Assembly (NCBI GenBank): GCA_017463375.1 | Contig: JAFTPG010000125.1 | Span: 1 to 32,198, forward strand | Direction of reading: 5' to 3' | From: Ruminococcus sp. | Lineage (GTDB): Bacteria; Bacillota; Clostridia; Oscillospirales; Ruminococcaceae | DNA: 32,198 nucleotides | Notes under the pieces: model-generated | Told to the model about the DNA's origin: nothing | Seen by the model: only the letters and a program-made list of their open reading frames with translations | Database searches by the model: none | Part shown: positions 16,487 to 32,198 of the stretch, one piece after another | Position numbering within the stretch: the stretch's first letter is position 1 | Layout of the letters: every line of letters starts with the position of its first letter | Made by a program: the position numbers and the translations under genes

Positions 16487-19400
16487 TCAGCCTTCCGCTA
16501 TAAAAGATACATCGTAGATGTCAACCGTATTCAGCGCATATCCGCAGTCGAAGCAGAGGGACGCATCATAGCAGTCCTCCTCAGCAGTAAAGCTGTAGGT
16601 GTATGTTTTCGGCGTCGTACCTGCTTCAATAACATGATGATCAAGCTGACTATAGTCATCGTAATTCTTCTGAACATGTGCAGCAATTGTCACATCAGCA
16701 TCAGACTTCACGGTAAAGGTATAGGTATATGTCCTGCCAGCCTCAATAACCATTCCGCTGTACATACCCTGCGCCTCCCATGTCTCATCAGGAAGAGCTG
16801 TTGTCTTTACAGTAATACTGTCAATATCATTCTGAGTGATCTCAGCAGCTCCGCTCGGATTATAGAGCCACCATTTGCCGACTCCATTCACCAGCTCCTG
16901 CGAGTAGGTAATTTCCTCAATCTTTGCATTTTTGATGATATATGTACCTGCTCCCAGACCATAGTCAAAGCAGAGTCTCCAGTTTGAAGCCGCTGCCTGA
17001 TTGTATACAAAGGTATAGGTGAATTCCTGAAGCTCAGGCGTCAGCATTATATTTGACGCTGAGAAGCAGCTCGGCCAGTCTGAGCCTACGTTATGGTTGA
17101 TATATACAGCAGTCTTATTGCTCTGCGGGCTTGATGCCTGGAAGCTCAGTCTGTAGGTCTTGCCCTCCTGGAGAGTAAACTCAGGAGTCTGCGACTGGAT
17201 ATCCCAGCTGTTTGCTCCTTTGGAGTTTGCAGTAAACGTGTATGTATCTCCGGACTTTGAAGCGCTTCCGTCTCCGTAGAAGCCCCAGCTGCTCACATTC
17301 GGCTGAATGGTCGAGATAACATTTGCCTCAGAAGCTATGCCATAGAGCTGATCCAGATACAGCTTTGCAGTATTGCGGCGGTCGATGAAGTACTGCTTGA
17401 ACTGAGCTATTTCACTGTCATAGTTATTATTTGCCCAGACCTGATCAAAACGCACATTCGTAGCCTCGATAGCCTCACGGTGGATCGCCACGAACTCATC
17501 AACTGCCTCGATAACGTCAGCCGGAGCAAAATTCTCTCTCATGATCTCCGTATAGGTATCATAGAACTCCTCGCTGAAAGTCTCATTATTGAGCAGATTA
17601 TAGAACATCTTTAAATAATTGTAGGGATACTCTGCTGTATAGAGATTATTGAGTGTATCATAGCCGGCAAGGGTGCTTCCAACATCAAAATAGTCGCTGC
17701 TGTTATCTACGTCGTAGAGCATGAATCTCCACTTTCCGTCAGCATAGGCATTCGTTTCATCGGTTACAGTAGCTCTCCATGTGATCCAGTTGTTAAGATA
17801 GCTCGTTCCCCAGTCGCAGTTATTGATAAAGGTCTGGATGGTGATATAGTCCATCAGGCTCTGGATATCGACTGTATCGCAGACTCTCTGGTAATTCTCC
17901 TCGACGGACATATCAGCCTCAGCAGCCCAGTCAAGGAATTCCTGGAATTCAGCAGCGACAGCTTCATCGCCTTCGTCCAGAGCGCTGTTCTTGAGGAGCG
18001 TAACGTTATCCTTGTCAATTCCGTAATGCGACTCGACAAAATCAGTATCCTGCTTCTCACGGATCATATAGTATCCCCAGAACTCGCCGTCGATGAATAC
18101 AACACACGGCTCACCCTCCTGAATAGCTACAGCTCTGTCCTTGCAGAGACGCTGAATCAGTATGTCTCTGCACCGCAGCAGGGTCTGCTCAGTACCGCCG
18201 TTACGGATAGTAACCTTGTCGAACTCCTCTATGGGATCTCCATTCACATCAGTCAGCCCCTCGATGAACTCGTACTTCATCTTGGAGTCGCCGTACTCGC
18301 TTCTTGCATAGAGACGTATGCTCTTCTGTGCATAGCCTCTTGACCAGTTACCGGAGATTCGTGCTCCGACATCTCCCGTATAGGCAAGCTCGCCGTTCTC
18401 GAACACCTGAACATTCATGGGGAACTCGGATTCCTTGCCTTCCTTATTGTAGTTGGTCGGATTTGATGTATCATTCTTATCACTGAGAGGAGTAAATTCT
18501 CCGCTGGCAACCTTATTGTAGTATTCGCTGCCGACCATGTAGAAGCCGGTATCCTCGTCAAAGAGCAGATCGCCGTCAGTTGAAAGCGAAACTACCTTGA
18601 AGTCGGAGTAATACGACGCTGTCTTGCCGATATAATAGCCGTTCGTCTCGACCTTACTGAAGCGTCCGTCAGCCGTTTTGCATACTGCACGGACAATTAT
18701 TCCCTTGTCAACATTGTAATCGGGAGCGCTGTAATCAGTAAGAACGATATCCTCCAGTGCGCTGTACTTATTGGCGTCACTTGTATTATTATAGATGTTG
18801 ATTCCAGCTGTATAAAGCTGCGCTGTCTCGGAGGTCGTCGGATCGCTTCCGTCGGTTGTGTAGTAGATTTCGTTTGCGTTGTTATCACTCAGCTCAAGAG
18901 TGAAGCTGTCGTCGTAGAAGCCTCCCTCGACGGAGAACAGCGGCTTTTCAACAACGTTGAGATCTGTTGCAGTATCGTTGGTTGCTGCGGGAGTACAGGT
19001 GATGTAAGAGAAATTCTCTGAACCGTTTGCAAATCTTCCGTAGGAAACATCGGTATCCAGCTCAGGAACGGTTACAGAGTCAATTTCACCGAACTCGGGA
19101 TGTGTAAGATAAATGGTCTCCCCTGTTGCAGTGATCTTGAATGCAGCATGGTATTCGCCCTCTGCCTGATTTACAGCGTCATCACAGAAAACGACGATAT
19201 ATCCGTATGCAGGAATTACAGTAAATTCGGGGAAAGTAAATTTGAACTTGTTCGTTGCTCCATCGGAAAGTCCGATTCCATCAAGCGTAATTCCCTCATC
19301 GGTCGAGTTGTAAATCTCAATCCAGTCGGGGGAAGCTCCCGAAGCATCAGTAACGGACTCCTTTGCTGACGAGCAGACCTCATTGATAACAAGTCCCGCA

Positions 19401-19696
19401 TATTTCTCTGCGTCCAGAGTCTTTTTCAGCTCCTTACGCACTCCGATAAGATCGAGAGAGTCTATCACTCCGTCTCCGTTTATATCGGAATTCTGATTCT
19501 GCTCCGTGGTAAGCTCGGATTTTCCCAGAACATGGCTTTGAAGCAGCTTCAAATCTTCTGTATCAACCACGCTGTCCAGATTTGCGTCGCCCAAAGCCGA
19601 TTCGACAGCCGCATTGATCACTGCCGCCTGCGGTGCGAGCATAGCTGACGCTGAAATCAAAGCTGTCAGAGCTGCTGCCGTTTTTCGTTTAAGCAT
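16487..19696 (-). CDS. Secreted dockerin/lamin-tail/CotH-kinase protein
   Basis: A 1069-residue multidomain exoprotein. Signal peptide 1-29. Type I dockerin about 36-92 with two calcium loops (DANLDSVVDTED and DINGDGVIDSLD), which would plug it into a cohesin scaffold. Lamin-tail domain about 100-235 (LVINEVCSS, WIEIYNS). Chitobiase/FN3-like domain about 253-355 (YYTTDGSDPTTSE). CotH domain about 365-790 (ISGNWSRGYAQKSIRLYARS, FIDGEFWGYYMIREK, LYDVDNS), related to an atypical protein kinase. Two beta-rich carbohydrate-binding-like modules about 808-1069. CotH-dockerin proteins are known in Ruminococcus cellulosomes, role unsettled. ATG has GAGGGT upstream. A close paralogue lies at the window end. 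Confidence 0.93.
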   Translation of the reverse strand: MLKRKTAAALTALISASAMLAPQAAVINAAVESALGDANLDSVVDTEDLKLLQSHVLGKSELTTEQNQNSDINGDGVIDSLDLIGVRKELKKTLDAEKYAGLVINEVCSSAKESVTDASGASPDWIEIYNSTDEGITLDGIGLSDGATNKFKFTFPEFTVIPAYGYIVVFCDDAVNQAEGEYHAAFKITATGETIYLTHPEFGEIDSVTVPELDTDVSYGRFANGSENFSYITCTPAATNDTATDLNVVEKPLFSVEGGFYDDSFTLELSDNNANEIYYTTDGSDPTTSETAQLYTAGINIYNNTSDANKYSALEDIVLTDYSAPDYNVDKGIIVRAVCKTADGRFSKVETNGYYIGKTASYYSDFKVVSLSTDGDLLFDEDTGFYMVGSEYYNKVASGEFTPLSDKNDTSNPTNYNKEGKESEFPMNVQVFENGELAYTGDVGARISGNWSRGYAQKSIRLYARSEYGDSKMKYEFIEGLTDVNGDPIEEFDKVTIRNGGTEQTLLRCRDILIQRLCKDRAVAIQEGEPCVVFIDGEFWGYYMIREKQDTDFVESHYGIDKDNVTLLKNSALDEGDEAVAAEFQEFLDWAAEADMSVEENYQRVCDTVDIQSLMDYITIQTFINNCDWGTSYLNNWITWRATVTDETNAYADGKWRFMLYDVDNSSDYFDVGSTLAGYDTLNNLYTAEYPYNYLKMFYNLLNNETFSEEFYDTYTEIMRENFAPADVIEAVDEFVAIHREAIEATNVRFDQVWANNNYDSEIAQFKQYFIDRRNTAKLYLDQLYGIASEANVISTIQPNVSSWGFYGDGSASKSGDTYTFTANSKGANSWDIQSQTPEFTLQEGKTYRLSFQASSPQSNKTAVYINHNVGSDWPSCFSASNIMLTPELQEFTYTFVYNQAAASNWRLCFDYGLGAGTYIIKNAKIEEITYSQELVNGVGKWWLYNPSGAAEITQNDIDSITVKTTALPDETWEAQGMYSGMVIEAGRTYTYTFTVKSDADVTIAAHVQKNYDDYSQLDHHVIEAGTTPKTYTYSFTAEEDCYDASLCFDCGYALNTVDIYDVSFIAEG

Positions 19697-21395: not shown

Positions 21396-22502
21396 CTATT
21401 TCATCGCCATGCTGTTATTCAGCAGCAGAGTACTGTACAGGAACAGAACATCCTGATTTCCGAACTCTATGAAATTCCCCAGCATACTGCTCCGAACATA
21501 GCGGATATCGACAAGAGTTATCTTTGAATATCCGTCAGCCAGAAGCGGAGCAAGACTGCTGGCAAAAGAATCACGGAAAATAATCAGCTCACGCTCCGTA
21601 TCCGCATTCGGATTTTCTATCGTGAGAAGCGGCTCGCTCCCCGAGAGAAACATCTCATACGGGTCTTTGCCGAAAGCTTTTTCCATGTTGTACAGAACAG
21701 ATTCTTCCTCAGTTCCCGTACTCCAGCTTGTAACACGGCATTGCTCCAGTGTTTCACTCGTCAGATATCTGATTGTATCAGGCTCGACAAGCAGTGCAAG
21801 CTGTCCGCAGTACACACCGTAAAAGGGATTGTCAAGCTCATTGACCGTATACTCACTTTCAAGTACAGCTCCCATTTCCGAAGCCAGCTTTTCGGCTATG
21901 TCAATAATCTTCTCCTGCCGCCAATGAGTATCGGTTCGGTAGTAGTCCTCTTTTTCGAGAAGCTCCGTTATATCAATGTAAGCCATATACTCCGTTTTTT
22001 CACGCATTTTCTCGATCATTGCAGAATAATCCAGTGAAAGACGCTCTGTTTCGGGAGCTGTATAATAATTCTTATCGGGAACAATCGAAAAGTAAATATT
22101 CATATCCTTGTCAGACAAATAATTATCGTAAATATAACGGAAACGCTCCGCCGCATAGTCAAGCATCTCCTCGTTCAGCGGATATTCGGTTTTCGAGATA
22201 TATCCGTCCTCGGGATAAAGTCCGTTATTGTCAAGCTTTCGGAATACGCTAAGCTCTGAAAAGGATTTCAGTCCTCTGAATTTGTCACGGAGTGGAAACT
22301 GGTCCATCGCATAGCTCTCGAAATCCTGCATAAATGCTCCCGACTCCACTGAATCTGCTGTAATCCCGGGAAAGTCCGCAAGAATTCTCCTCTCGCTTTC
22401 GGAATACTCGTCAGCGCCTTTCATCCAGCTCCACAAGGACATTCCGAACAGAAGAACTGCCATCACTGCAATTACAATAATATTTCTGTTTTTTCCATTC
22501 AT
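21396..22502 (-). CDS. DHHW family protein (AlgX/DltD-like acetylation partner)
   Basis: A 368-residue membrane-anchored extracellular protein: one N-terminal membrane segment (8-26), then a SGNH-like domain. The DHHW signature appears as D191-T-H193-W in YRTDTHWRQE, with FESYAMDQFPLRDKF (61-75) and a C-terminal FRDSFA (S312). Families of this type work with MBOAT proteins to move acyl groups onto extracellular polysaccharide. It lies 11 nt after the MBOAT gene in the same operon. The polymer and acyl group are not known. Confidence 0.88.
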   Translation of the reverse strand: MNGKNRNIIVIAVMAVLLFGMSLWSWMKGADEYSESERRILADFPGITADSVESGAFMQDFESYAMDQFPLRDKFRGLKSFSELSVFRKLDNNGLYPEDGYISKTEYPLNEEMLDYAAERFRYIYDNYLSDKDMNIYFSIVPDKNYYTAPETERLSLDYSAMIEKMREKTEYMAYIDITELLEKEDYYRTDTHWRQEKIIDIAEKLASEMGAVLESEYTVNELDNPFYGVYCGQLALLVEPDTIRYLTSETLEQCRVTSWSTGTEEESVLYNMEKAFGKDPYEMFLSGSEPLLTIENPNADTERELIIFRDSFASSLAPLLADGYSKITLVDIRYVRSSMLGNFIEFGNQDVLFLYSTLLLNNSMAMK

Positions 22503-22513
22503 AGCATGCCTCC

Positions 22514-23914
22514 TCAGAATCTGAAATACAGGAACGGATTAAACGAGCCGTCCACGAGATACGCAGTCGAAACAAGCAGAAGCATTCCAAGAAACACAGG
22601 CTCGGCAATCGCTGTTACAGTTTTTCCGTACCTTGTTTTTTCAAATCCCGAAACAAGCTTTTTCGGAAACTCAGTTGCTCCGATAACCGCAATTATAAGA
22701 ATAATGCCGAAGCTCCGCAGATAATAGCTCTGCTCAGCCGAAATCAGCGGAATGTCTCCGAATCCGAGCATGTCTCTGATACATTCGGCAGCAGAGTTTA
22801 TATCCGACGCTCCGAAAATCACAAAGCTTATTATTACTGCAAACAGCACATAGATATGGCTCAGAATTTTTGATTTTTTCAGATATTCAAGCAGGAAAAG
22901 CTTCTCGATTACAAGGAATACCGCAAAATAGAGTCCCCATATTATGAAATTCCACGCAGCTCCATGCCAGAAGCCCGTCAGAAGCCACACTACAAAAATA
23001 TTCCCCAGCCAGCGCAGCTTAGATACTCTGTTTCCTCCCAGAGGAATATAGACGTAGTCCCTGAACCATGTCCCGAGAGATATATGCCATCTGCGCCAGA
23101 ATTCGGTTATGCTTTTTGAAATATAAGGATAGTTGAAATTCTCCATGAAATCAAAGCCAAAAAGCTTTCCCAGTCCGATTGCCATATCGCTGTAGCCCGA
23201 AAAGTCAAAATAGACCTGCAATGAATATGCCGCCGCATACATCCAGCTGAAAACAATTGATTTTTCATCCGATTCGGAATATATACCGCAAAGCTCTCCG
23301 AGAGCATTTGCTATAAGAACCTTTTTAGCCAATCCGAGAATAAATCTTCTTATTCCCTCGGCAGTTTTTTCCGATGTATGGGTTCTTTGCTCCAACTGCT
23401 GTGCAATATCTGAATAGCGGACTATCGGTCCCGCTATCAGCTGCGGGAAAAGCGATACATAGCATGCAAGATTTATCGGATTGCGCTGAGCCTTTGCTTC
23501 TCCCCGATAAACGTCAATCACATAGCTGAGAATCTGAAACGTATAGAAGCTTATTCCCACGGGCAGAGCTATTTTCAGCAGAGGTACTGACAGTCCCGTT
23601 GCTGCATTGAAATTCTCTATGAAAAAATCGGCATACTTGAAATACGCAAGCATTCCTATACTGACTGCCGACGAGACTGCAAGAACTGCTTTTGAAGCTG
23701 CTCTGCCACGGAATTTCTCTGTCAGCATTCCCGATATATAGCCGTTCATGATTCCTGCTGCCATAAGAAGTACATATCCCGGCTCACCCCACGCATAAAA
23801 AACGAGACTCGATATCAGCAGAACCGTGTTTCTCAGCTTTTTCGGCGATATCAGGTAGAATATCAGCACGCACGGAAGAAAATAATACAGAAAAGTTATG
23901 CTCGAAAAAAGCAT
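22514..23914 (-). CDS. MBOAT-family O-acyltransferase (AlgI/DltB-like)
   Basis: A 466-residue multi-pass membrane acyltransferase of normal AlgI-like length. The invariant histidine is H317 in TGFWHGAAWNFIIWG, and the family block NYPYISKSITEFWRRWHIS plus VYIPLGGNR is intact. It would pass an acyl or acetyl group across the membrane to the DHHW protein for O-acylation of a surface polymer. The ATG at 23914 is chosen because GGAGGT lies just upstream; a GTG two codons earlier overlaps that ribosome site. It is co-directional with a lipoprotein gene 57 nt upstream and diverges, as an operon, from the carrier-protein/acyl-ligase operon. Confidence 0.93.
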   Translation of the reverse strand: MLFSSITFLYYFLPCVLIFYLISPKKLRNTVLLISSLVFYAWGEPGYVLLMAAGIMNGYISGMLTEKFRGRAASKAVLAVSSAVSIGMLAYFKYADFFIENFNAATGLSVPLLKIALPVGISFYTFQILSYVIDVYRGEAKAQRNPINLACYVSLFPQLIAGPIVRYSDIAQQLEQRTHTSEKTAEGIRRFILGLAKKVLIANALGELCGIYSESDEKSIVFSWMYAAAYSLQVYFDFSGYSDMAIGLGKLFGFDFMENFNYPYISKSITEFWRRWHISLGTWFRDYVYIPLGGNRVSKLRWLGNIFVVWLLTGFWHGAAWNFIIWGLYFAVFLVIEKLFLLEYLKKSKILSHIYVLFAVIISFVIFGASDINSAAECIRDMLGFGDIPLISAEQSYYLRSFGIILIIAVIGATEFPKKLVSGFEKTRYGKTVTAIAEPVFLGMLLLVSTAYLVDGSFNPFLYFRF

Positions 23915-23936
23915 AGACACCTCCAGATAAAAGCTC

Positions 23937-23959
23937 GGGCTGACAGATCATGTCAGCCC
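23937..23959 (-). terminator. Hairpin between lipoprotein and MBOAT genes
   Basis: A 9-bp perfect stem GGGCTGACA/TGTCAGCCC with a 5-nt loop, followed by GAGCTTTTA on the minus strand. The T run is weak, so it may be a partial terminator or an mRNA-processing point setting different expression for lipoprotein and MBOAT. Confidence 0.5.
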
Positions 23960-23971
23960 TTGTATTGATCA

Positions 23972-24544
23972 TTATTCCTCAAAGCTGCTCGGACACATCA
24001 GGAAGAACACCTTGTCTCCGATATTCTCAACGATAGTTTCATCAGCCTCTGTGCAGATGTTCCATCTTGGGTCAGCGTTGCCCTTGAGAGTCTGTACAAA
24101 TGCAGCCGCATCCGTTCCCTCGTCAAGAGTGAAAACATATCCCACAAAAGGAATCGTACCAATTGTCGGAGCAAACATAACTCCCTCGCTGAAGCCTGTG
24201 ATCTCAGCATTTCCAAAGCCTGTGAGAAGTCCGTTTTCAACAGGCATTGAAGCTCCTGCGAACTGAATAACACCGTTTGTGAGAACTGCGTCCGCAAGCT
24301 CCTGTGCGCTGAGAGAAGCGTCAGCCTCAACTCTGCCTTTGAAGTCCTCGAGAAGCGTCTGTCCGATCGTGCCGGATGCGACACTGCTTCCGCTGTCGGA
24401 CTCCTGATTATCCTCGGGAGCTTCTGTTATCTCCTCAGACGTCCGGCTCTCGCTCACGGAGGAGGACTCCTTTTCCTTATCTCCGCAGCCTGCGAGAGTT
24501 AAGATCATCATTGAAGCTAAAAATAATGTTAATGCCTTTTTCAT
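23972..24544 (-). CDS. Lipoprotein, possibly DUF4358-like
   Basis: A 190-residue secreted lipoprotein. The signal peptide MKKALTLFLASMMILTLAGC carries a lipobox with lipidated C20. A low-complexity acidic/serine linker (about 22-52) follows, then a compact domain with FKGRVEADASLSAQELADAV and VGYVFTLDEG. The domain resembles DUF4358 lipoproteins that often accompany MBOAT and DHHW genes in Clostridia, but I am not certain. The ATG at 24544 has AAGGAG 8 nt upstream; the frame stays open further upstream but that stretch is not a signal peptide. Confidence 0.8.
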   Translation of the reverse strand: MKKALTLFLASMMILTLAGCGDKEKESSSVSESRTSEEITEAPEDNQESDSGSSVASGTIGQTLLEDFKGRVEADASLSAQELADAVLTNGVIQFAGASMPVENGLLTGFGNAEITGFSEGVMFAPTIGTIPFVGYVFTLDEGTDAAAFVQTLKGNADPRWNICTEADETIVENIGDKVFFLMCPSSFEE

Positions 24545-24563
24545 AATAATTCTCCTTGGTATT

Positions 24564-24786
24564 TCAAATATTGCCGGAATCTTCCGGCTGCTGCCACAAA
24601 AAGTCAAAGCTTCCCGGTTCAGCACGAAGACAGGTATCAAGCACGCCGGAAAAATCTTCATTCTTTTCAGCATACTTTCATTATCCGAAGAAAACACTGT
24701 ATTATCCAGCATAAGCGTGAGAAATGCTGCAATAATTTCCGCACTTTCTGCTGCATTCATAATACGTTCTTGTTATCATTTTCCAT
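24564..24786 (-). pseudogene. Possible decayed small gene before the lipoprotein
   Basis: Between the promoter and the lipoprotein, coding-like sequence appears in three frames in turn: a short MENDNKNVL ending in TGA (from 24786), overlapped by ATG for MNAAESAEIIAAFLTLMLDN, then a third frame giving KYAEKNEDFSGVLDTCLRAE and ending at TGA 24564-24566. Joined by two frameshifts they would give a plausible protein of about 70 residues. A leader with an ATGA-coupled mini-ORF is the alternative. Neither is strongly supported. Confidence 0.25.
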
Positions 24787-24819
24787 AGATAATACAAGTA
24801 CCCCGTTTTATTTTTTCTA

Positions 24820-24848
24820 ATTATATCACAAATCCATCTGTTTGGCAA
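24820..24848 (-). promoter_or_regulatory. Promoter of the lipoprotein-MBOAT-DHHW operon
   Basis: On the minus strand -35 TTGCCA (24848-24843), 17 bp, -10 TATAAT (24825-24820). Its -35 lies only 19 bp from the -35 of the divergent promoter at 24868, so the two are back to back. Confidence 0.65.
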
Positions 24849-24867
24849 TATAAATTCCGTGATAAAC

Positions 24868-24896
24868 TTGACCGTCGGTTGAAAACATGGTAAAAT
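24868..24896 (+). promoter_or_regulatory. Promoter of the hydrolase-condensation-ACP-ligase operon
   Basis: -35 TTGACC (24868-24873), 17 bp, -10 TAAAAT (24891-24896). The expected start is near 24903, about 50 nt before the first ATG. Confidence 0.7.
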
Positions 24897-24923
24897 ATAG
24901 AAAAGAAAATTCGACCAACGGTC
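24870..24923. promoter_or_regulatory. Pair of TetR-like operators, GACC-N3-GGTY
   Basis: Two related inverted repeats: GACC-GTC-GGTT (24870-24880), overlapping the -35, and GACC-AAC-GGTC (24913-24923, extended to CGACC/GGTCG), just after the start site. Centres are 43 bp apart, about four helical turns. This half-site form is typical of TetR-family regulators. No such regulator is encoded in the window. Confidence 0.5.
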
Positions 24924-24953
24924 GGAAATTGATAGAAGAAAGTATGTGATATA

Positions 24954-25922
24954 ATGGGAACAGGTTTAATTGCCGGTGCTGTTGCAGGCGGTGTTGTGCT
25001 GGCAGGCGCTGCCGCTTCACTCGGAGGAGCTCTCAAGCTCTTCAACAGCGTTATTCCCCGTCAGAAGGAGCTTCGTGTCAATATGAACGAAATGGCGGAC
25101 GCTCAGAAATGGGAAGAGTATAAAAAGCTTATCTATCCTGCAAAGGAATGGCTTATGGCTCAGCCCCTTGAACCCGTTTCCATTCAGGCTCGCGACGGAA
25201 TTACTCTCCGCGGACATTATCTTCCTGCCAAGGAAAAAAGCAATCGTCTTGTGATCGCTCTTCATGGATATACAAGCAGCGGTCTGAGTAACTTCTGCGG
25301 AATGTCACAGTTCTATCAGAATATGGGATTCAGCTGTCTTATCGTTGACCATCGTGCTCACGGTGAAAGCGACGGAGATTACGTCGGATTCGGTATTCTG
25401 GACCGATATGACTGCCTTGCATGGATCAATTACGCTCTGGAGCGTTTCGGTCCGGATACTGAGATCCTGCTTCAGGGAATCTCTATGGGAGCTTCAACAG
25501 CTCTTATGACTCTCGGTTTTGATGAGCTTCCAAAGGCTGTAAAGGGCGTCGTTTCTGACTGCGCTTTTACTTCTCCCTATGATGTATTTGCTCATGTTAT
25601 CAAGCGCGACTACAAAATGCAGCCGTTCCCGATGATGAATATAAGCGACTCGTTCTGTCAGAAAAAGGCAGGCTACCGCTTCAAGGATTACTCTACTCTC
25701 ACTGCTCTTGCAAAGACAGACCGCCCCGTCCTGCTGATTCATGGAAAGGAAGATAACTTCGTTCCGACATGGATGAGCGAGAAGAATTTCGAGGTATGCA
25801 AGTCTCCGAAAAAACTGTTAATGATAGATAATGCCGGTCACGGCGCAAGCTATTACGAAAATCATGAGGTTTATGAACAGGCAGTTTCTGAGTTTGTTGA
25901 GAAATATATGCCTGCAAAATAA
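24954..25922 (+). CDS. Membrane-anchored alpha/beta hydrolase
   Basis: A 322-residue serine hydrolase with an N-terminal hydrophobic anchor (about 3-28). The catalytic triad is S177 in GISMGAS, D267 in GKEDNFVP and H296 in NAGHGAS, with the oxyanion region LHGYTSSG near 104-110. It resembles acyl/peptidyl esterases of the YfhR/BEM46 group. The ribosome site is weak (AGAAAG), which lowers certainty about the exact start. It leads the operon with the condensation, carrier and ligase genes (17 nt to the next), so it may release or trim the acyl product, acting like a thioesterase. The substrate is unknown. Confidence 0.85.
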   Translation: MGTGLIAGAVAGGVVLAGAAASLGGALKLFNSVIPRQKELRVNMNEMADAQKWEEYKKLIYPAKEWLMAQPLEPVSIQARDGITLRGHYLPAKEKSNRLVIALHGYTSSGLSNFCGMSQFYQNMGFSCLIVDHRAHGESDGDYVGFGILDRYDCLAWINYALERFGPDTEILLQGISMGASTALMTLGFDELPKAVKGVVSDCAFTSPYDVFAHVIKRDYKMQPFPMMNISDSFCQKKAGYRFKDYSTLTALAKTDRPVLLIHGKEDNFVPTWMSEKNFEVCKSPKKLLMIDNAGHGASYYENHEVYEQAVSEFVEKYMPAK

Positions 25923-25939
25923 GGAAATGAGGAAATTTT

Positions 25940-27349
25940 ATGAAAGAATTTCAGGTTAACGGCGTTACGCTGAAATGCTATCCGCTGACCGCTGCTCAGA
26001 GAATCCATAACTACTCTGTTATGCACTGTCCGTATCACCAGCTCCTCAATATCGGTACGGGACTATATATTCAGCTGGATGTGGATTTTAATCTGCTGAA
26101 GGAATCCATATACGAGTGCTATGAGCGTTTTGAGTCCATGCGTCTTCGTTTTCTCGAGGATACCGACGGTACTGTCTATCAGTATCTCGTTCCCTTTGAG
26201 GAGCGTGACATCGAATTCAGAGACTTCTCCCACTGGAAAGAGGAGGACGCTCATGACGAAATGAGAAGATGGACCGCTGTTCCGTTCAAGCGTTTCCACT
26301 CCCCTATGAGTCAGATCGTTATGATCAAGCTGCCCAACGACTACAATGGTATCTATATGAAGGTAAATCACCTGACTATGGACTCCAGCTCAATTATCAC
26401 ATTTTTCCGTGATGTACTGGAAATCTACTGCTCAAAGTGCTATGACTATCCCGCACCTAAGCCGATGCACTCCTATATAAAGGCTCTCGAGAAAGACCTC
26501 GCTTACGAGGCTGGCAGTGCTGCTCAGAAGAAGGACGCTGAGTTCTGGATGAACGAGATCACTAAGAGCGAGCCTATGTATACCGATTTCAACGGTATGG
26601 GCAGACTTCTTACTCAGAGACGTGAGAATAATAACCCTGACCAGAGAAGCGCTAAAGTTACTTCCATCAGCCCCGAGGCTTCGATTTCCGTTTATCAGCT
26701 CGAGAAAGAGCCGTCAGAGAGACTCATTAAGTTCTGTGAGGAAAACCGTGTTCCCGTCGTTTGTCTGCTCCTCATGGGACTGCGTACCGTTCTTTCCAAA
26801 TTCAATAACGACGAAAAGGATGTTTCCATCAAGAGCTGCGTTGCAAGACGAGGAACTCTCCTCGAAAAGAGAAGCGGCGGTACAAGAATACATTTCTTCC
26901 CGATCCGTACGATTCTTGAGCCTGAATGCACATTCCTTGAGGGAATCCGTGCCATTCAGGAGGAACAGAACAGACTCTTCCGCCATGCAAATTATGACCC
27001 GATCGCTCATACCTACCAGCGTGTGCGCCACTGGAAGCTGAACTCCGGCGAAAGCTATGAGAGCATCAGCCTTACATATCAGCCCATGACAATGCGTCAG
27101 GACTCCGAGGATATCCCGAACATCCCCTACAAGAGTATGTGGTATACCAACGGTGTTGCCGCTCAGCCGCTCTATCTCACCGTTATGCACCGTGTCGAGG
27201 ATAACGGTCTCAACTTTAATTTTGAATACCGAAAGGACGCAGTTACCAATTATGAGATGGAATACCTTTATTACTATCTCTGCCGTGTTCTTTTCAGAGG
27301 TATAGAAAACAGCAGCCGTACTATCGGTGAAATACTTGAAATGATTTAA
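25940..27349 (+). CDS. Free-standing condensation-domain acyltransferase
   Basis: A 469-residue protein covering one whole NRPS-type condensation domain. The usual HHxxxDG active-site motif reads N-HLTMDS: the catalytic second histidine (H144) and the aspartate (D148) are kept, while the first histidine is N143 and the glycine S149. The N-terminal LTAAQRIHNYS corresponds to the C1 motif region. Such domains join an acyl group held on a carrier protein to an amine or alcohol. The next two genes encode exactly a carrier and an adenylating enzyme, so it is likely the transfer step. GAGGAAA lies before the ATG. It could also resemble PapA-like or alcohol acyltransferases. Confidence 0.82.
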   Translation: MKEFQVNGVTLKCYPLTAAQRIHNYSVMHCPYHQLLNIGTGLYIQLDVDFNLLKESIYECYERFESMRLRFLEDTDGTVYQYLVPFEERDIEFRDFSHWKEEDAHDEMRRWTAVPFKRFHSPMSQIVMIKLPNDYNGIYMKVNHLTMDSSSIITFFRDVLEIYCSKCYDYPAPKPMHSYIKALEKDLAYEAGSAAQKKDAEFWMNEITKSEPMYTDFNGMGRLLTQRRENNNPDQRSAKVTSISPEASISVYQLEKEPSERLIKFCEENRVPVVCLLLMGLRTVLSKFNNDEKDVSIKSCVARRGTLLEKRSGGTRIHFFPIRTILEPECTFLEGIRAIQEEQNRLFRHANYDPIAHTYQRVRHWKLNSGESYESISLTYQPMTMRQDSEDIPNIPYKSMWYTNGVAAQPLYLTVMHRVEDNGLNFNFEYRKDAVTNYEMEYLYYYLCRVLFRGIENSSRTIGEILEMI

Positions 27350-27363
27350 GGAGGATTTTTATT

Positions 27364-27591
27364 ATGCTGGAACAGCTTAAACCAATTATCTGCGAATATG
27401 TTGAGGCAGAACCCGAGAATATCACTCTTGACTCAAAATTCATCGAGGACCTGCACTTTAATTCCTACGACTTCATGAGCTTCCTCGGCGAGGTAGAGGA
27501 AATGTTCGAGGTTACAGTCGATGAGCAGGATATTCTTAATCTTCAGACTGTGGGCGACGCTATCGCTTATCTCGAAAACCTGAAAAAGTAA
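27364..27591 (+). CDS. Acyl/peptidyl carrier protein
   Basis: A 75-residue acidic four-helix carrier protein of normal length. The phosphopantetheine attachment serine is S34 in EDLHFNSYDFMSF, in place of the common DSL; the following helix (GEVEEMFEVTVDEQDI) and TVGDAIAYL are typical. AAGGAGG lies 8 nt before the ATG. It sits 14 nt after the condensation gene and 9 nt before the ligase gene. It would shuttle an acyl thioester between the two. It is probably not the housekeeping fatty-acid ACP, given its context and changed motif. Confidence 0.93.
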   Translation: MLEQLKPIICEYVEAEPENITLDSKFIEDLHFNSYDFMSFLGEVEEMFEVTVDEQDILNLQTVGDAIAYLENLKK

Positions 27592-27600
27592 GGAGCAGCT

Positions 27601-29163
27601 ATGAATAAGAATAATGTCAAGACTTTACAGGCTCTTATCTTAAAGGCAGCTGAACTCTACGGCGATAAGGTTTTTATGAAAGAGAAATCCGGTAAGGATA
27701 CTGCCGAAACCTCTTTCAATCAGCTTCTTGAGAACAGCAGAAAGACTGCCGCTTTCCTGATGGAACGCTCAGGCGGAGAAAAGCTCCATGCAGCTGTTAT
27801 CGGCGGAACAAGCTCGGCTTACCTGACCGCCTATTTCGGTACAGTATGCTGCGGCAGCGTGATCGTTCCGCTCGACGCCCAGCTTGGCTGCGAGGATCTC
27901 ATCGACCACTTACAGCGCTCTGATTCACAGGTGTTCTTCTACGACAAGCGCTATGCTCCCATGATTCACGAGATCCGTGCAAACTGCCCTGCTATACATA
28001 CATATATCTGCATGCAGGACGACTCTGCTCAGGAGGATGTATACTTCCTCCCTCAGATTCTCAATGAAACAGCTCCTATGAACGAGCTTCCCGAAATCGA
28101 CCCCGCTTCATGTGCGGCTATCCTCTATACCTCTGGAACAACAGGCAAGAGCAAGGGTGTTATGCTTGCACACTCAAACCTCATTGACAATACCTTCTGT
28201 CAGAATAATGAAAGTACTTCCGAGGATGTTACGCTCACAGTTCTTCCTATCCACCATGTATACTGCTTTACATGCGATATTCTTCTCTCGATCCGTTACG
28301 GCGGAACTGTGTGCGTTAATGACTCCATGATGCACATCGCTCAGAATCTCAAAAAGTATCAGCCTACAATTATACTCCTCGTTCCCATGATTGCCGAGAC
28401 CATCTACAAGAAGATTCAGGCAGCGTCTGCCGCAAAGCCTGAGGTTCCGGTTCAGGCTATTGCCCGTGCTGTTTTCGGCGAGAATCTCAAAATCATCTAC
28501 AGCGGCGGAGCTTACCTCAATCCTGAGCTTGCAAAGGCTTACCTCTCACTTGGTATCCCGATTGCTCAGGGCTACGGCATGACCGAATGCTCTCCCCGTA
28601 TCACTACAGGTGCTCCCGATAAGGACTGCCTCGAGGACGTCGGAGTTATTGTAAACGGCTGTGAAGTTAAAATCGTAGACGGCGAAATCTGGGCTAAGAG
28701 TCCCTCTGTTATGATGGGCTATTATAAGGCTCCGGAGGAAACTGCTGCTGTTCTTACCGAGGACGGATGGCTTAAAACAGGCGACCTCGGTTATGTTGAC
28801 GAGAAGAATCGTGTTCACATCACAGGCCGCAAAAAGAATCTCATTATCCTCAGCAACGGCGAAAACGTTTCTCCTGAGGAGCTTGAAAATAAGTTTTCTG
28901 GTCTCGACTGGCTTTCAGAGGTTCTGGTTTATGCGGAGGAAGGCATGATTACTGCTGAAATCTTCCCCAACAGCGAGTTCTGCGCTGAGATGAGCATTGA
29001 CGATGTCAAGAATCTCTGCCGTGAACATGTTCAGAAAATCAACAAAACTGTTTCAGGAGCTAAGGCTATCCGCAGACTCAGAATCCGTGACGTTGAATTC
29101 GACAAGACTACTTCAAAGAAAATCAAGAGAGAGCAGTCTCAGAAGGGCGAGCTTTTCTCATAA
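27601..29163 (+). CDS. AMP-dependent acyl ligase (ANL superfamily)
   Basis: A 520-residue adenylating enzyme. It has the phosphate loop YTSGTTGKSKG (176-186), GYGMTE (324-329), TGDLG (393-397), R410 with KKNLI, and a C-terminal KTTSKKIKR holding the catalytic lysine. It activates a carboxylic acid with ATP and should load it on the carrier encoded 9 nt upstream. The LPIHHVYCF block is like acyl-CoA/acyl-ACP synthetases, and the FD motif that anchors an amino group in NRPS A domains is not evident, so a fatty or other non-amino acid is the likelier substrate. That is inference. TAAGGAG precedes the ATG. Confidence 0.92.
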   Translation: MNKNNVKTLQALILKAAELYGDKVFMKEKSGKDTAETSFNQLLENSRKTAAFLMERSGGEKLHAAVIGGTSSAYLTAYFGTVCCGSVIVPLDAQLGCEDLIDHLQRSDSQVFFYDKRYAPMIHEIRANCPAIHTYICMQDDSAQEDVYFLPQILNETAPMNELPEIDPASCAAILYTSGTTGKSKGVMLAHSNLIDNTFCQNNESTSEDVTLTVLPIHHVYCFTCDILLSIRYGGTVCVNDSMMHIAQNLKKYQPTIILLVPMIAETIYKKIQAASAAKPEVPVQAIARAVFGENLKIIYSGGAYLNPELAKAYLSLGIPIAQGYGMTECSPRITTGAPDKDCLEDVGVIVNGCEVKIVDGEIWAKSPSVMMGYYKAPEETAAVLTEDGWLKTGDLGYVDEKNRVHITGRKKNLIILSNGENVSPEELENKFSGLDWLSEVLVYAEEGMITAEIFPNSEFCAEMSIDDVKNLCREHVQKINKTVSGAKAIRRLRIRDVEFDKTTSKKIKREQSQKGELFS

Positions 29164-29258: not shown

Positions 29259-32198
29259 TTAGCCATTGCATACAAGCATAGCGTCCAGAATATAGAATGT
29301 TCCGACATCATAGCCGCAGTCAAAGCAGATAGACGCGTCTGCACAGTCCTCCGCAGGAGTAAAGGTGAAGCTGTATGTCTGACGATCCTCACCGACTGTT
29401 ACCTCTGCCCAGTGGAACTTTGAGTATTCACCGAAGTTCTGCTGAACCATGCACGCAAGCTTTGATTCAACATCTGCTTCCGCTGTGAATGTGTAGGTGT
29501 AGGATTTTCCTGCCTCAAGTGCCACACTGCTGTATATAGCCTGAGCCTCCCAGGTATTGTCGGGAAGAGTCACAGTTTCAACGCCTACAGTATAATCATA
29601 ATACTCTGTAAGCTCTGCTGAACCTGTAGGGTTATATAAAGCCCATGCTCCGTCTGCATTGATGAGGTTTGTTACGGGCATTTCTTCAAGCATTACATCC
29701 TTGATATAGTACTCGCCGATACCGCATCCGAAGTTGAAATACAGGAACCAGTTATCAGCAGTCTCACCGCTCAATGTAAATATGTATTCATAATAGTCCG
29801 TATCAGCTGTAAGCGCAGCATTGCTGCTCCATCCGCTAAAGTACTCGCCGCTTTCTTCACGCAGCAGACCCAATGTCATATCAATATCAGGCTCGCTTGC
29901 CGCCTTAAAGGAGAGCCGGTATGTCTTGCCGCTCTCAAGATGCATATTCTGCGCCAGAGCCTGAGCAGACCATTCTTCCTCACCGAGAGCTGTTACATTT
30001 GCTTCAAATGTCTGATTTGCGGAATCATAGGAGAACGACGCCTCAGCACCGCTGTTTGCCTGAGTATACCATTCTGATACATCGGGAACCAGATTGTTTA
30101 CCTTTTCAAGGCGAGCGTTCTTGATTACATAAGTACCCGCTGCAGCTCCGTAATTGAAATACAGATACCAGTCATCGTATGTATCATAGTCGAGCGTAAA
30201 TGTATATGTATAGCTTGTCAGCTCCGGAGTCAGCTGAACATTTTCGCTCCAGCATACGGGATACTCGCCGTTTTCAGCTGCTCTGCAGAAGCCGAAGTTC
30301 ACAGCAGCGCTTTCAGAGCTGGAAGCTTCAAATGTAAGTCGGTAGGATGCGCCGTCCTCAAGAAGAACGTTCCAAGCCTGGGACTGAATATGATGCTCTT
30401 TCTCGCTTGTCTCAGAAACAACGGCAGTAAAGCTGTCCTCCGCACTGTTATAGCTGAATGTGCCCGAGCCGCTTGTAGCATGATGCGTCCACTCATATAC
30501 CTCAGGAAGCAGATTGCCGTCATCCGTATCATTATATTTGCCGACAAACTTTTCAAGATACGCCTTTGCATAAGCAGGACGCTGATTGAAATAGTTTCTG
30601 AACTGATCAACGCTTGTATCAAAGCTGTAAGCCGCCCAGTCAATGCTGAAACGCAGATCGGAAGCCTTGATCGCATCGCCGTATGCATTAGCATACTCCA
30701 TCAGCTTTGTCTCAACTGTTGCAGGATCGAAAGTTGTTTCCATAATTCTGATGTAGTTGTCATAGAACTGCTGTGCGAAGGTCTGATTGTTCATGAGGTT
30801 TTTCAGCATAGCACCGAAATTGAAGTTTGCACACGGAGATTCAGTAACTGTATTCAGCGAATCGTAATTCGGCATCTGATTTGCACCCTGCCAGAGTCCG
30901 GACGAAATATCCATATCATAGAAGATAAAACGCCACTTGCCGTCAGCCTCGGGAATTGACGGATCTGTTACCTTTGCACGCCATGTCTGCCAGTTATTGA
31001 CGTAATTCTCCTTTATCCAGTCGTCATTGTTAACGTAGGTCTCAACGGTCATATAGTCCATAAACGACTGGACATCCATCTGATTGCAGAACTCTTCATA
31101 ATTTGCCGCATCCGTCATATCCGCAGACGCAGCCCACTGACAGAATGCATTGAATCCGCTTGCATCCTCAGTAACGCCTTCTTCGATTCCGCCGTTTTTC
31201 AGAACAGCAACGTTTTCCTTAGGAATGCCGTAATGGGACTCGATGTAATCTCCGTCGGTCTTTTCACGAAGCATGTAGAAGCCCCAGAATTCGCCGTCAA
31301 TAAAGAGAATACACGGCTCTGATTCCATTGTATCGACCGCAAGATCGGAAGCAAGATCCTGAATGATTGCATCACGGAAATGGAGAACCTCGCTGTCATT
31401 TCCGCCGTTTCTTAGAGTAACCTTATCAAACTCCTCTATAAGCTGATCATTGATATCGGTCATTTCCTCAAAGAAGGAATATCTCATCTTGGAATCGCCG
31501 TACTCGCTTCTTGCATAGAGTCGGAAGCTCTTCTGACGGAGAGCTCTTGTCCAGTTTCCTGCAATACGAGCTCCTACATCCGCTGTATAGGCAAGCTCGC
31601 CGTTCTCGAATACCTGAATATTTACCGGGAATTCCGATTCCTTGCCATCCTTGTTGTAGTTAGTCGGATTCTGGGTATCGCCGTAGTCATAAGCGACATA
31701 TTCAGAGCTGTTTCTCCATTCATACCAGCCGCTGCCGATCATGTAGGCTCCCGTATCCTCGTCAAAGAGATAGTCAGGGTCGGTTGACATTGAAATTACC
31801 TTCAAGTCATAGTAATAATCGGCTGTCTTTCCGATGAAGTAGCTGTTTGTGGCAACCTCGCTGAATCTGCCGTCAGAGGTCTTTGAAGCTGCTCTGATAA
31901 CGATGCCCTTGTCAACCTCGGAGGTCTCGGGAGGAGTGTATGAATTCATCATTTCATACAGAGATATTCCCATCAGCGCACTGTATTTGTTTGCGTCATT
32001 TGAATTGTTGTAGATGTTAATCTCACCGCTGTAAAGCTGCGCCGTCTCGGATGTGGTGGGATCGCTTCCGTCGGTGGTGTAGTAGATCTCATTGCCATTG
32101 CTGTCATTCAGAGCAAGGCTGAAAGCTTCGTCATAGAATCCGCCTTCTACGGAGAACAGCGGCTCTTCCACTACATTCAGGTCTGTTGCTGTATCATT
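29259..32198 (-). CDS. Second CotH-kinase exoprotein, 5-prime end outside the window
   Basis: A partial gene: 979 codons are visible and the frame runs off the right edge without a start (the last visible codons read NDTATDLNV, matching residues 240-248 of the first CotH protein). Visible order: chitobiase/FN3-like domain (about 12-120, YYTTDGSDPTTSE), CotH domain (about 125-550, IAGNWTRALRQKSFRLYARS, LFIDGEFWGFYMLREK, FYDMDISSG), then three beta-rich carbohydrate-binding-like modules (about 560-700, 700-845 and 845-979). By analogy the missing part holds a signal peptide, dockerin and lamin-tail domain, but this cannot be seen. It is a clear paralogue of the protein at 16487-19696, with one extra C-terminal module. 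Confidence 0.9.
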   Translation of the reverse strand, partial: NDTATDLNVVEEPLFSVEGGFYDEAFSLALNDSNGNEIYYTTDGSDPTTSETAQLYSGEINIYNNSNDANKYSALMGISLYEMMNSYTPPETSEVDKGIVIRAASKTSDGRFSEVATNSYFIGKTADYYYDLKVISMSTDPDYLFDEDTGAYMIGSGWYEWRNSSEYVAYDYGDTQNPTNYNKDGKESEFPVNIQVFENGELAYTADVGARIAGNWTRALRQKSFRLYARSEYGDSKMRYSFFEEMTDINDQLIEEFDKVTLRNGGNDSEVLHFRDAIIQDLASDLAVDTMESEPCILFIDGEFWGFYMLREKTDGDYIESHYGIPKENVAVLKNGGIEEGVTEDASGFNAFCQWAASADMTDAANYEEFCNQMDVQSFMDYMTVETYVNNDDWIKENYVNNWQTWRAKVTDPSIPEADGKWRFIFYDMDISSGLWQGANQMPNYDSLNTVTESPCANFNFGAMLKNLMNNQTFAQQFYDNYIRIMETTFDPATVETKLMEYANAYGDAIKASDLRFSIDWAAYSFDTSVDQFRNYFNQRPAYAKAYLEKFVGKYNDTDDGNLLPEVYEWTHHATSGSGTFSYNSAEDSFTAVVSETSEKEHHIQSQAWNVLLEDGASYRLTFEASSSESAAVNFGFCRAAENGEYPVCWSENVQLTPELTSYTYTFTLDYDTYDDWYLYFNYGAAAGTYVIKNARLEKVNNLVPDVSEWYTQANSGAEASFSYDSANQTFEANVTALGEEEWSAQALAQNMHLESGKTYRLSFKAASEPDIDMTLGLLREESGEYFSGWSSNAALTADTDYYEYIFTLSGETADNWFLYFNFGCGIGEYYIKDVMLEEMPVTNLINADGAWALYNPTGSAELTEYYDYTVGVETVTLPDNTWEAQAIYSSVALEAGKSYTYTFTAEADVESKLACMVQQNFGEYSKFHWAEVTVGEDRQTYSFTFTPAEDCADASICFDCGYDVGTFYILDAMLVCNG

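Follow-up and report, generated by a model that had tools for sequence, protein, structure and literature searches.

The question raised by this locus is whether two operons that stand back to back in the genome of a gut Ruminococcus sp. work together as one acylation system. The locus lies on contig JAFTPG010000125.1 of assembly GCA_017463375.1, of which positions 1 to 32,198, the whole stretch that was analysed, are called the window here. Its plus-strand operon runs in the order hydrolase, condensation protein (C), acyl carrier protein (ACP) and acyl-AMP ligase, with intergenic gaps of 17, 14 and 9 nt, and its minus-strand operon in the order lipoprotein, MBOAT O-acyltransferase and DHHW protein. 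An earlier interpretation of the letters alone, the sequence-only reading, had described a tight operon on each strand, with back-to-back promoters whose -35 boxes lie 19 bp apart, and had proposed an undescribed, Dlt-like acylation system. All seven genes were found where that reading had placed them, and the layout was confirmed by the gene calls, by Pfam (six of the seven genes, the lipoprotein having no Pfam family) and by the promoter-like sites; overlooked had been a tetR remnant (24576-24748) and two palindromic operators. We conclude with good confidence, from homology and gene neighbourhood, that the window holds a fatty acid amide (CTA-type) operon that has lost its repressor, and that an unrelated envelope O-acyltransferase operon stands behind the old repressor promoter. 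The genes of the amide operon are as follows:

24954-25922, plus strand: HYD, alpha/beta hydrolase, the first gene of the operon (Pfam Abhydrolase_1, E 2.8e-16)
25940-27349, plus strand: C, stand-alone condensation protein of the fatty acid amide type (Pfam Condensation, E 6.5e-35; 12kh, E 6.8e-108)
27364-27591, plus strand: ACP, free-standing acyl carrier protein (Pfam PP-binding, E 3.1e-10)
27601-29163, plus strand: LIG, acyl-AMP ligase (Pfam AMP-binding, E 2.6e-63)

When C was compared with all PDB sequences, 12kh (OaaC) was matched over residues 12-469 at the E-value listed above, and the next chain, ObiF1, followed at E 1.3e-5; 176 of 458 residues (38%, counted from the alignment) were identical between C and OaaC. 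According to the data statement of PMC13142362, 12KH is OaaC, a fatty acid amide condensation enzyme of Coprococcus eutactus. The same source describes OaaC as coupling acyl-ACP with a free amine, yielding oleoyl aminovaleric acid, and its OaaC-OaaACP-OaaA cluster as a free-standing ligase, ACP and C with the motif (D/H)HxxxDS, and it states that fatty acid amides of gut Clostridia act on host receptors (PMC13142362). In place of HHxxxDG, the C of the window holds N143-H-L-T-M-D148-S149, which keeps H144, D148 and S149 of the variant motif and has N at the first position, for which the paper names D or H. Among 73 C proteins (72 loci and the window), the motif reads DHMTMDS in 61, NHLIMDA in five and NHMTMDS in three, while DHMTADS, HHATMDA and NHLTMDS (that of the window) occur once each and one protein had no match to the search pattern.

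The discovery paper of CTA, or fatty acid amide, operons in gut Clostridia is said to be that of Chang et al. 2021 in Nat Microbiol. The same three genes are named the CTA operon in Blautia wexlerae, where the ACP gene lies between C and A, and its homologues were reported in 36 species, all Lachnospiraceae, at a 70% identity cut-off among 7,781 isolate genomes (PMC13060934). Strains with the CTA operon had more acyl ethanolamines, the toxicity of fatty acids is lessened by free amines, and in Blautia its relief is reported to come from the conjugation of fatty acids to amines (PMC13060934). The window shares with these operons a stand-alone C, an ACP and an acyl ligase, with the ACP gene in the middle, and a C that is a full-length OaaC homologue and keeps the variant motif's H, D and S. 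The novelty claimed by the sequence-only reading is not upheld: an undescribed ligase-carrier-condensation system was rejected on the homology to 12KH/OaaC and on the published CTA operon, to which the C-ACP-ligase genes correspond. The window differs in its host, a Ruminococcus, whereas the homologues listed in PMC13060934 belong to Lachnospiraceae only, and in a motif that starts with N and not with D or H. In addition, a TetR with operators and an SCP2 gene recur near related loci, and the window has a membrane-anchored hydrolase at the operon head; since it is also found in fetched Lachnospiraceae loci, it may adjoin the published tested operons as well. The words 'hydrolase' and 'TetR' are absent from the main text of PMC13142362 and of PMC13060934, their figures not being covered by this statement. 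Open PMC titles and abstract openings placed no hydrolase, TetR or SCP2 beside such an operon, which says little for papers outside that set, and a literature search combining fatty acid amide, TetR, hydrolase and condensation domain returned 0 papers.

To judge from its relatives, the ligase is of the acyl or fatty acyl type and not of the amino acid type, which bears out the earlier view that it is not specific for an amino acid. Its best NCBIfam model was the long-chain-fatty-acid--CoA ligase PRK06187 (245.2 bits, below the cut-off of 476), and its kin in the PDB are fatty acyl ligases, aryl ligases and luciferases, with coumarate and feruloyl ligases included. It carries the motifs YTSGTTGKSKGV, YGMTE and SKKIKR, to which we presumptively ascribe functional roles. 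The ACP has a predicted phosphopantetheine serine, S34 (DLHFNSYD), and matched the NCBIfam acyl carrier protein model at E 4.9e-16, under the cut-off of that model. In the proposed mechanism, a fatty acid would be loaded onto the ACP by the ligase, and the stand-alone C would join the ACP-bound fatty acid to a free small amine; an N-acyl small molecule, one of the outcomes raised beforehand, would be the most likely product.

The operon is conserved as a unit. A scan of the genome collection, made with word patterns from the window's own C and thus leaning toward close kin, gave 75 loci (numbered with L) that encode a C relative. All four genes were present in 63 of them, in the order hydrolase-C-ACP-ligase in 63 of 63, with median gaps of 27, 29 and 19 nt between the matched stretches. 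Ten of the 12 loci without at least one core gene are cut by a contig end; the other two are L084, which has its full flank and no hydrolase match, and L089, where all that is present of C is its final 100 residues, preceded by 9.5 kb of other sequence. The nearest loci belong to metagenome-assembled Ruminococcus genomes, and 30 of the 75 loci are labelled roe deer, water deer, sheep, goat or 'Lapin' (rabbit), the remaining labels, as far as shown, being without such a host. Within the genus, C was found in 9 of 36 genomes (E <= 1e-130), the window genome counted, and within the class a C match was found in 23 of 391 (E <= 1e-30), three of these matches lying inside frames of 1,300 to 2,501 codons. 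In a tree of 71 C proteins the window grouped with L016 and L017 (support 100/89). Because synonymous sites are saturated or nearly so against the nearest loci, only pN/pS is given: against L016/L017 it was 0.24/0.25 for the hydrolase, 0.15/0.13 for C, 0.12/0.16 for ACP and 0.18/0.21 for the ligase, and a ligase value of 0.77 for L018 was inflated by a frame break in the L018 contig. Clustering of the open frames around the operon brought out two recurrent neighbours, a divergent TetR gene (TetR_N, 4.3e-11) and an SCP2 gene (8.6e-16). Among four-gene loci with 1.2 kb or more of upstream sequence, 27 of 51 have the TetR gene; among those with 0.9 kb or more downstream, 20 of 57 have SCP2 no further than 1 kb downstream of the operon. 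Two side observations concern individual relatives. In L061, labelled Alistipes senegalensis, the C of the operon is placed deep within the Ruminococcus sequences, and the record is probably a misassigned bin; a C relative at G368:C19:217348-218748 (33% identity) has two in-frame TGA codons, as a pseudogene or a sequencing fault would.

In the hydrolase, S177, D267 and H296 are invariant in 25 of 25 aligned sequences, chosen out of 66, and fit a catalytic triad. The AlphaFold2 model has a mean pLDDT of 88.7, with residues 1-13 below 50, a well predicted alpha/beta domain, and an N-terminal hydrophobic helix at model residues 4-33 that is of low confidence at its start. The nearest solved fold was the carboxylesterase/esterase Pf2001 (5g59, E 1.3e-18), by which the domain is predicted to be of the esterase/lipase type, and the fold list also holds the thioesterase DcsB, feruloyl esterases, acylaminoacyl peptidases and, further down, monoacylglycerol lipase. 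Net charge around the helix in 57 proteins was +1.0 before and +1.8 after it, values that do not fix the topology. Hydrolase matches were also obtained in five of six distant loci labelled Lachnospiraceae/Roseburia and similar (L082, L083, L085, L088 and L090, not L084), so the hydrolase is not special to Ruminococcus. This membrane-anchored, esterase-like enzyme is predicted to free fatty acids from lipids located at the membrane and thereby to feed the ligase. It is nevertheless quite possible that the amide synthase is the same and that the hydrolase is no supplier, acting instead as an editing thioesterase that clears misloaded ACP or as an amidase that recycles the product. DcsB and the acylaminoacyl peptidases in the fold list suit such a role, and the gene, whose presence in the 63 four-gene loci follows from how that set was defined, is missing in L084 with its full flank. 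The best match to a carboxylesterase, with monoacylglycerol lipase further down, and the N-terminal hydrophobic helix, which suits a lipid substrate better than a soluble ACP, speak for a supplier of fatty acids, and neither is decisive.

We consider it unlikely that the same enzymes carry out a different conjugation, in which an aryl or short-chain acid, or an alcohol or amino acid acceptor, would lead to another N- or O-acyl small molecule. Coumarate and feruloyl ligases among the kin of the ligase, feruloyl and cinnamoyl esterases among those of the hydrolase, the N at the start of the C motif and the limited identity to OaaC are all compatible with such chemistry. However, the solved structure by far closest to C is OaaC, whose substrates are fatty acyl-ACP and free amines; the lipid-carrier family SCP2 is a recurrent neighbour of the operon; and the best NCBIfam model of the ligase is long-chain fatty acyl, though under its cut-off.

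The features between the two operons are as follows:

24576-24748, minus strand: tetR remnant, the last ~57 codons in two frames (translated matches to the TetR of relatives)
24820-24848, minus strand (read from 24848 to 24820): probable former tetR promoter, TTGCCA-17-TATAAT, with TG before the -10 box, upstream of the tetR remnant and of lipoprotein-MBOAT-DHHW
24868-24896, plus strand: promoter-like site of the HYD-C-ACP-LIG operon, TTGACC-17-TAAAAT, with TG before the -10 box
24865-24885: operator O1, AACTTGACCGTCGGTTGAAAA, over the -35 box (27.1 bits)
24908-24928: operator O2, AATTCGACCAACGGTCGGAAA, between the -10 box and HYD (27.6 bits)

The -35 hexamers of the divergent promoter-like sites (24848 on the minus strand, 24868 on the plus strand) are separated by 19 bp. 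Such sites are not clearly enriched in the region (15 against 11.3 in shuffles, sd 4.3), and the same divergent pair is visible by eye in many intergenic regions of relatives that hold tetR. The operators were scored with a weight matrix trained on 50 sites, the window excluded, against 305 shuffled upstream regions (99% point 4.6 bits, highest 13.1), mononucleotide shuffles being the weaker kind of null. Near the start of the hydrolase gene, each of the 30 loci of the TetR cluster has a palindrome of the pattern TCGACCGNCGGTCGA with a score higher than that of any shuffle, and 19 of the 30 have a second; where two were seen, one spans the -35 box, as judged by eye. Outside the TetR cluster, the 99% point was exceeded in 16 of 31 loci and the score of the highest shuffle in 13; among these are the window and also L065, the TetR of which had been overlooked by the frame caller. 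The two operators of the window are the two best sites in its 32 kb. A wider TetR regulon was also considered: at up to two mismatches the operator pattern occurred eight times in the 36 genomes, against 13 for a reversed control pattern. Five of the eight occurrences lie beside an amide operon (once in the window genome, G000, and twice each in G002 and G016), and the other three are single occurrences in genomes without C; in G003, which holds C on a cut contig, the pattern did not occur. As a separate observation, the operators of L046, L049, L062, L064, L069, L078 and L086 outscore every shuffle, and the roughly 1.5 kb upstream of these operons gave no match to TetR; there a repressor may act from elsewhere in the genome. 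Because the divergent TetR gene adjoins palindromic operators in the relatives, TetR likely represses the related operons through them, and it may respond to fatty acids.

The window has no intact TetR gene, with its DNA-binding part, beside the operators. Only two pieces in different frames remain at 24576-24748 on the minus strand, matching residues ~148-205 of 205, and the rest of the gene, the DNA-binding part included, is absent between the promoter and the lipoprotein gene. In a search of 601 bases, the TetR of 29 of 30 relatives matched the remnant at E < 1e-3 (best 9.5e-15), and the best match in a search of the whole window was 1.3e-10. Regulation in trans by a second copy of this TetR was considered, and the window genome, 91% complete, gave no TetR match at E <= 1e-3 beyond the same two pieces. 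With two operators kept and no more than a C-terminal remnant left of the repressor gene, the operon has probably escaped TetR control. In L016 and L017, the nearest relatives of the window, the 1.5 kb upstream gave no match to tetR, and both are without an operator (best scores -2.0 and -5.9). As the window holds operators and a remnant and its sisters hold neither, its lineage appears to have lost the repressor stepwise; we infer the order of these events, including that of the remnant relative to the lipoprotein-MBOAT-DHHW trio. That the remnant is an assembly fault and that the strain has an intact repressor is very unlikely. The genome is indeed a draft of 132 contigs with 4.88% contamination and 91% completeness, yet a long deletion and a frameshift would both be required, no other TetR match exists in it, and the two nearest relatives have neither tetR match nor operator.

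The genes behind the old tetR promoter, which they probably use, are as follows:

23972-24544, minus strand: LP, 190-aa lipoprotein of an unannotated family (no Pfam match; 1670 homologues at E <= 1e-3)
22514-23920, minus strand: MBOAT O-acyltransferase (Pfam, E 7.7e-32; DltB 6bug, E 3.6e-27)
21396-22502, minus strand: DHHW protein, extracellular acyltransferase (Pfam DHHW, E 1.5e-10; PatB1 of Bacillus cereus, 5v8d, E 3e-16; strings DTHW and RDSF)

The lipoprotein frame stays open to an ATG at 24760 and thus crosses the first tetR remnant piece; its start was taken as 24544 because a ribosome-site-like AAGGAGAA and a lipoprotein signal are found there. The core of its predicted fold, residues ~60-185, is confident, and this fold had no PDB match at E <= 1e-3. 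PatB1 of Bacillus cereus is described as an O-acetyltransferase of secondary cell wall polysaccharide and has an MBOAT protein as its partner; this PatA-type partner presumably takes acetyl from coenzyme A (PMC9487903). As in PatA1/PatB1, the minus-strand operon has an MBOAT gene beside that of a PatB1-related DHHW protein; unlike it, the operon opens with a third gene, the unannotated lipoprotein. For the closest DHHW relatives, seven contigs of 8-16 kb were fetched; MBOAT adjoins DHHW in all seven, and none of them had a match to hydrolase, C, ACP or ligase. The lipoprotein was clear in three of the seven (L148, L149 and L150) and weak in the L153 contig (E 9.8e-5), and L151 and L152 have a small lipoprotein-like frame at its position. 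In three of these contigs (L149:5139-9518, L150:6454-10659 and L152:6900-11344), an ECF-type sigma gene (Sigma70_r2/r4), a second gene, a small lipoprotein, MBOAT and DHHW stand in a row, which looks like a sigma-controlled envelope O-acyltransferase cassette; the second gene belongs to no Pfam family and may encode an anti-sigma factor, and the window trio is without the sigma gene and the second gene. In the genus, a close DHHW relative (E <= 1e-100) was present in 4 of 36 genomes, and only the window genome has both C and DHHW. As this distribution indicates, lipoprotein-MBOAT-DHHW is an independent envelope O-acyltransferase unit, separate from the amide operon.

Association of the two operons was assessed by tblastn (E < 1e-4) in the surroundings of the four-gene loci. 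MBOAT/DHHW was near one of the 35 loci with at least 5 kb on both sides, downstream in L031, and upstream of the operon in none of the 41 with at least 5 kb there. At L031:13958-16944 an MBOAT and a DHHW-like gene lie downstream of SCP2 on the same strand, the tetR gene is intact, and the two proteins are distant from those of the window (45% and 24% identity). The window genome has four MBOAT genes, so one near any given operon is not very surprising. The region does resemble DltABCD in that a ligase, a carrier, an MBOAT and an extracellular acyltransferase are all present, but its ligase is of the fatty acyl type, its MBOAT is far under the NCBIfam DltB cut-off (174.6 bits against 375), the place of DltD is taken by DHHW, there is a condensation protein besides, and relatives do not have the two operons linked. 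The idea of one Dlt-like system, in which ligase and ACP would pass an acyl group via MBOAT to DHHW for acylation of an envelope polymer, is most improbable: the parts list, DltB as the closest solved relative of the MBOAT, the back-to-back promoters and L031 recall it, but the neighbourhood counts, the seven contigs in which MBOAT-DHHW stands without the operon, close DHHW relatives in three other genus genomes without C, the failed DltB cut-off and the pairing of PatB1 with a PatA-type MBOAT that is presumably fed acetyl by coenzyme A (PMC9487903) stand against it, and such a system has no place for C. The sequence-only reading had itself called the link accidental if condensation-carrier-ligase operons are always found without MBOAT/DHHW neighbours; they are so almost always, and L031 keeps this from being always. 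Outside both operons, two large related surface proteins of one cluster flank the region (16487-19696 and 29259-32198), with starts that read as dockerin-like; the proteins themselves are putatively CotH-like.

Several observations weigh against the conclusion that the window holds a fatty acid amide operon that lost its repressor. The identity of C to OaaC is only 38%, the motif of C opens with N, as it does in 9 of the 73 C proteins, and not with the D or H of the paper, and OaaC and other condensation-domain classes were not in the C tree. The ligase is as much like aryl ligases as like those for long-chain fatty acids, and its sequence therefore does not settle which acid it takes. A phosphopantetheinyl transferase (PF01648) was not found in the window genome, which is 91% complete; as PF01648 was present in 32 of 36 searched genomes, its absence from this draft is probably an assembly gap. 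Beside the operon, 24 of 51 loci have no TetR match of this cluster, the SCP2 homologue of the window (50% identity) is on another contig, and L031 does have MBOAT and DHHW as neighbours.

Considering all the above results, we have also drawn a wider picture, which is tentative and in its entirety rather doubtful. Ruminococcus, many of them from herbivore guts, would possess a self-regulated amide system, in which a membrane lipase supplies the ligase, ACP and C, SCP2 acts as lipid carrier, and a TetR that senses fatty acids controls the operon through a double operator. In the present strain the repressor would have been destroyed, amide production would be permanently on, and the envelope operon would stand on the promoter of the dead repressor, tying wall modification to a lipid-stress promoter by accident.

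The comparison of these loci shows how back-to-back operons can resemble one system when a decayed gene alone separates them. For the amide operons themselves, the locus would carry the published type into Ruminococcus and add a conserved upstream hydrolase as a candidate source of fatty acids, on which the main texts of PMC13142362 and PMC13060934 are silent. It also adds a dedicated TetR with defined operators, by which the switch of amide production becomes directly testable, and the window and its two nearest relatives would form a natural series of repressor loss.

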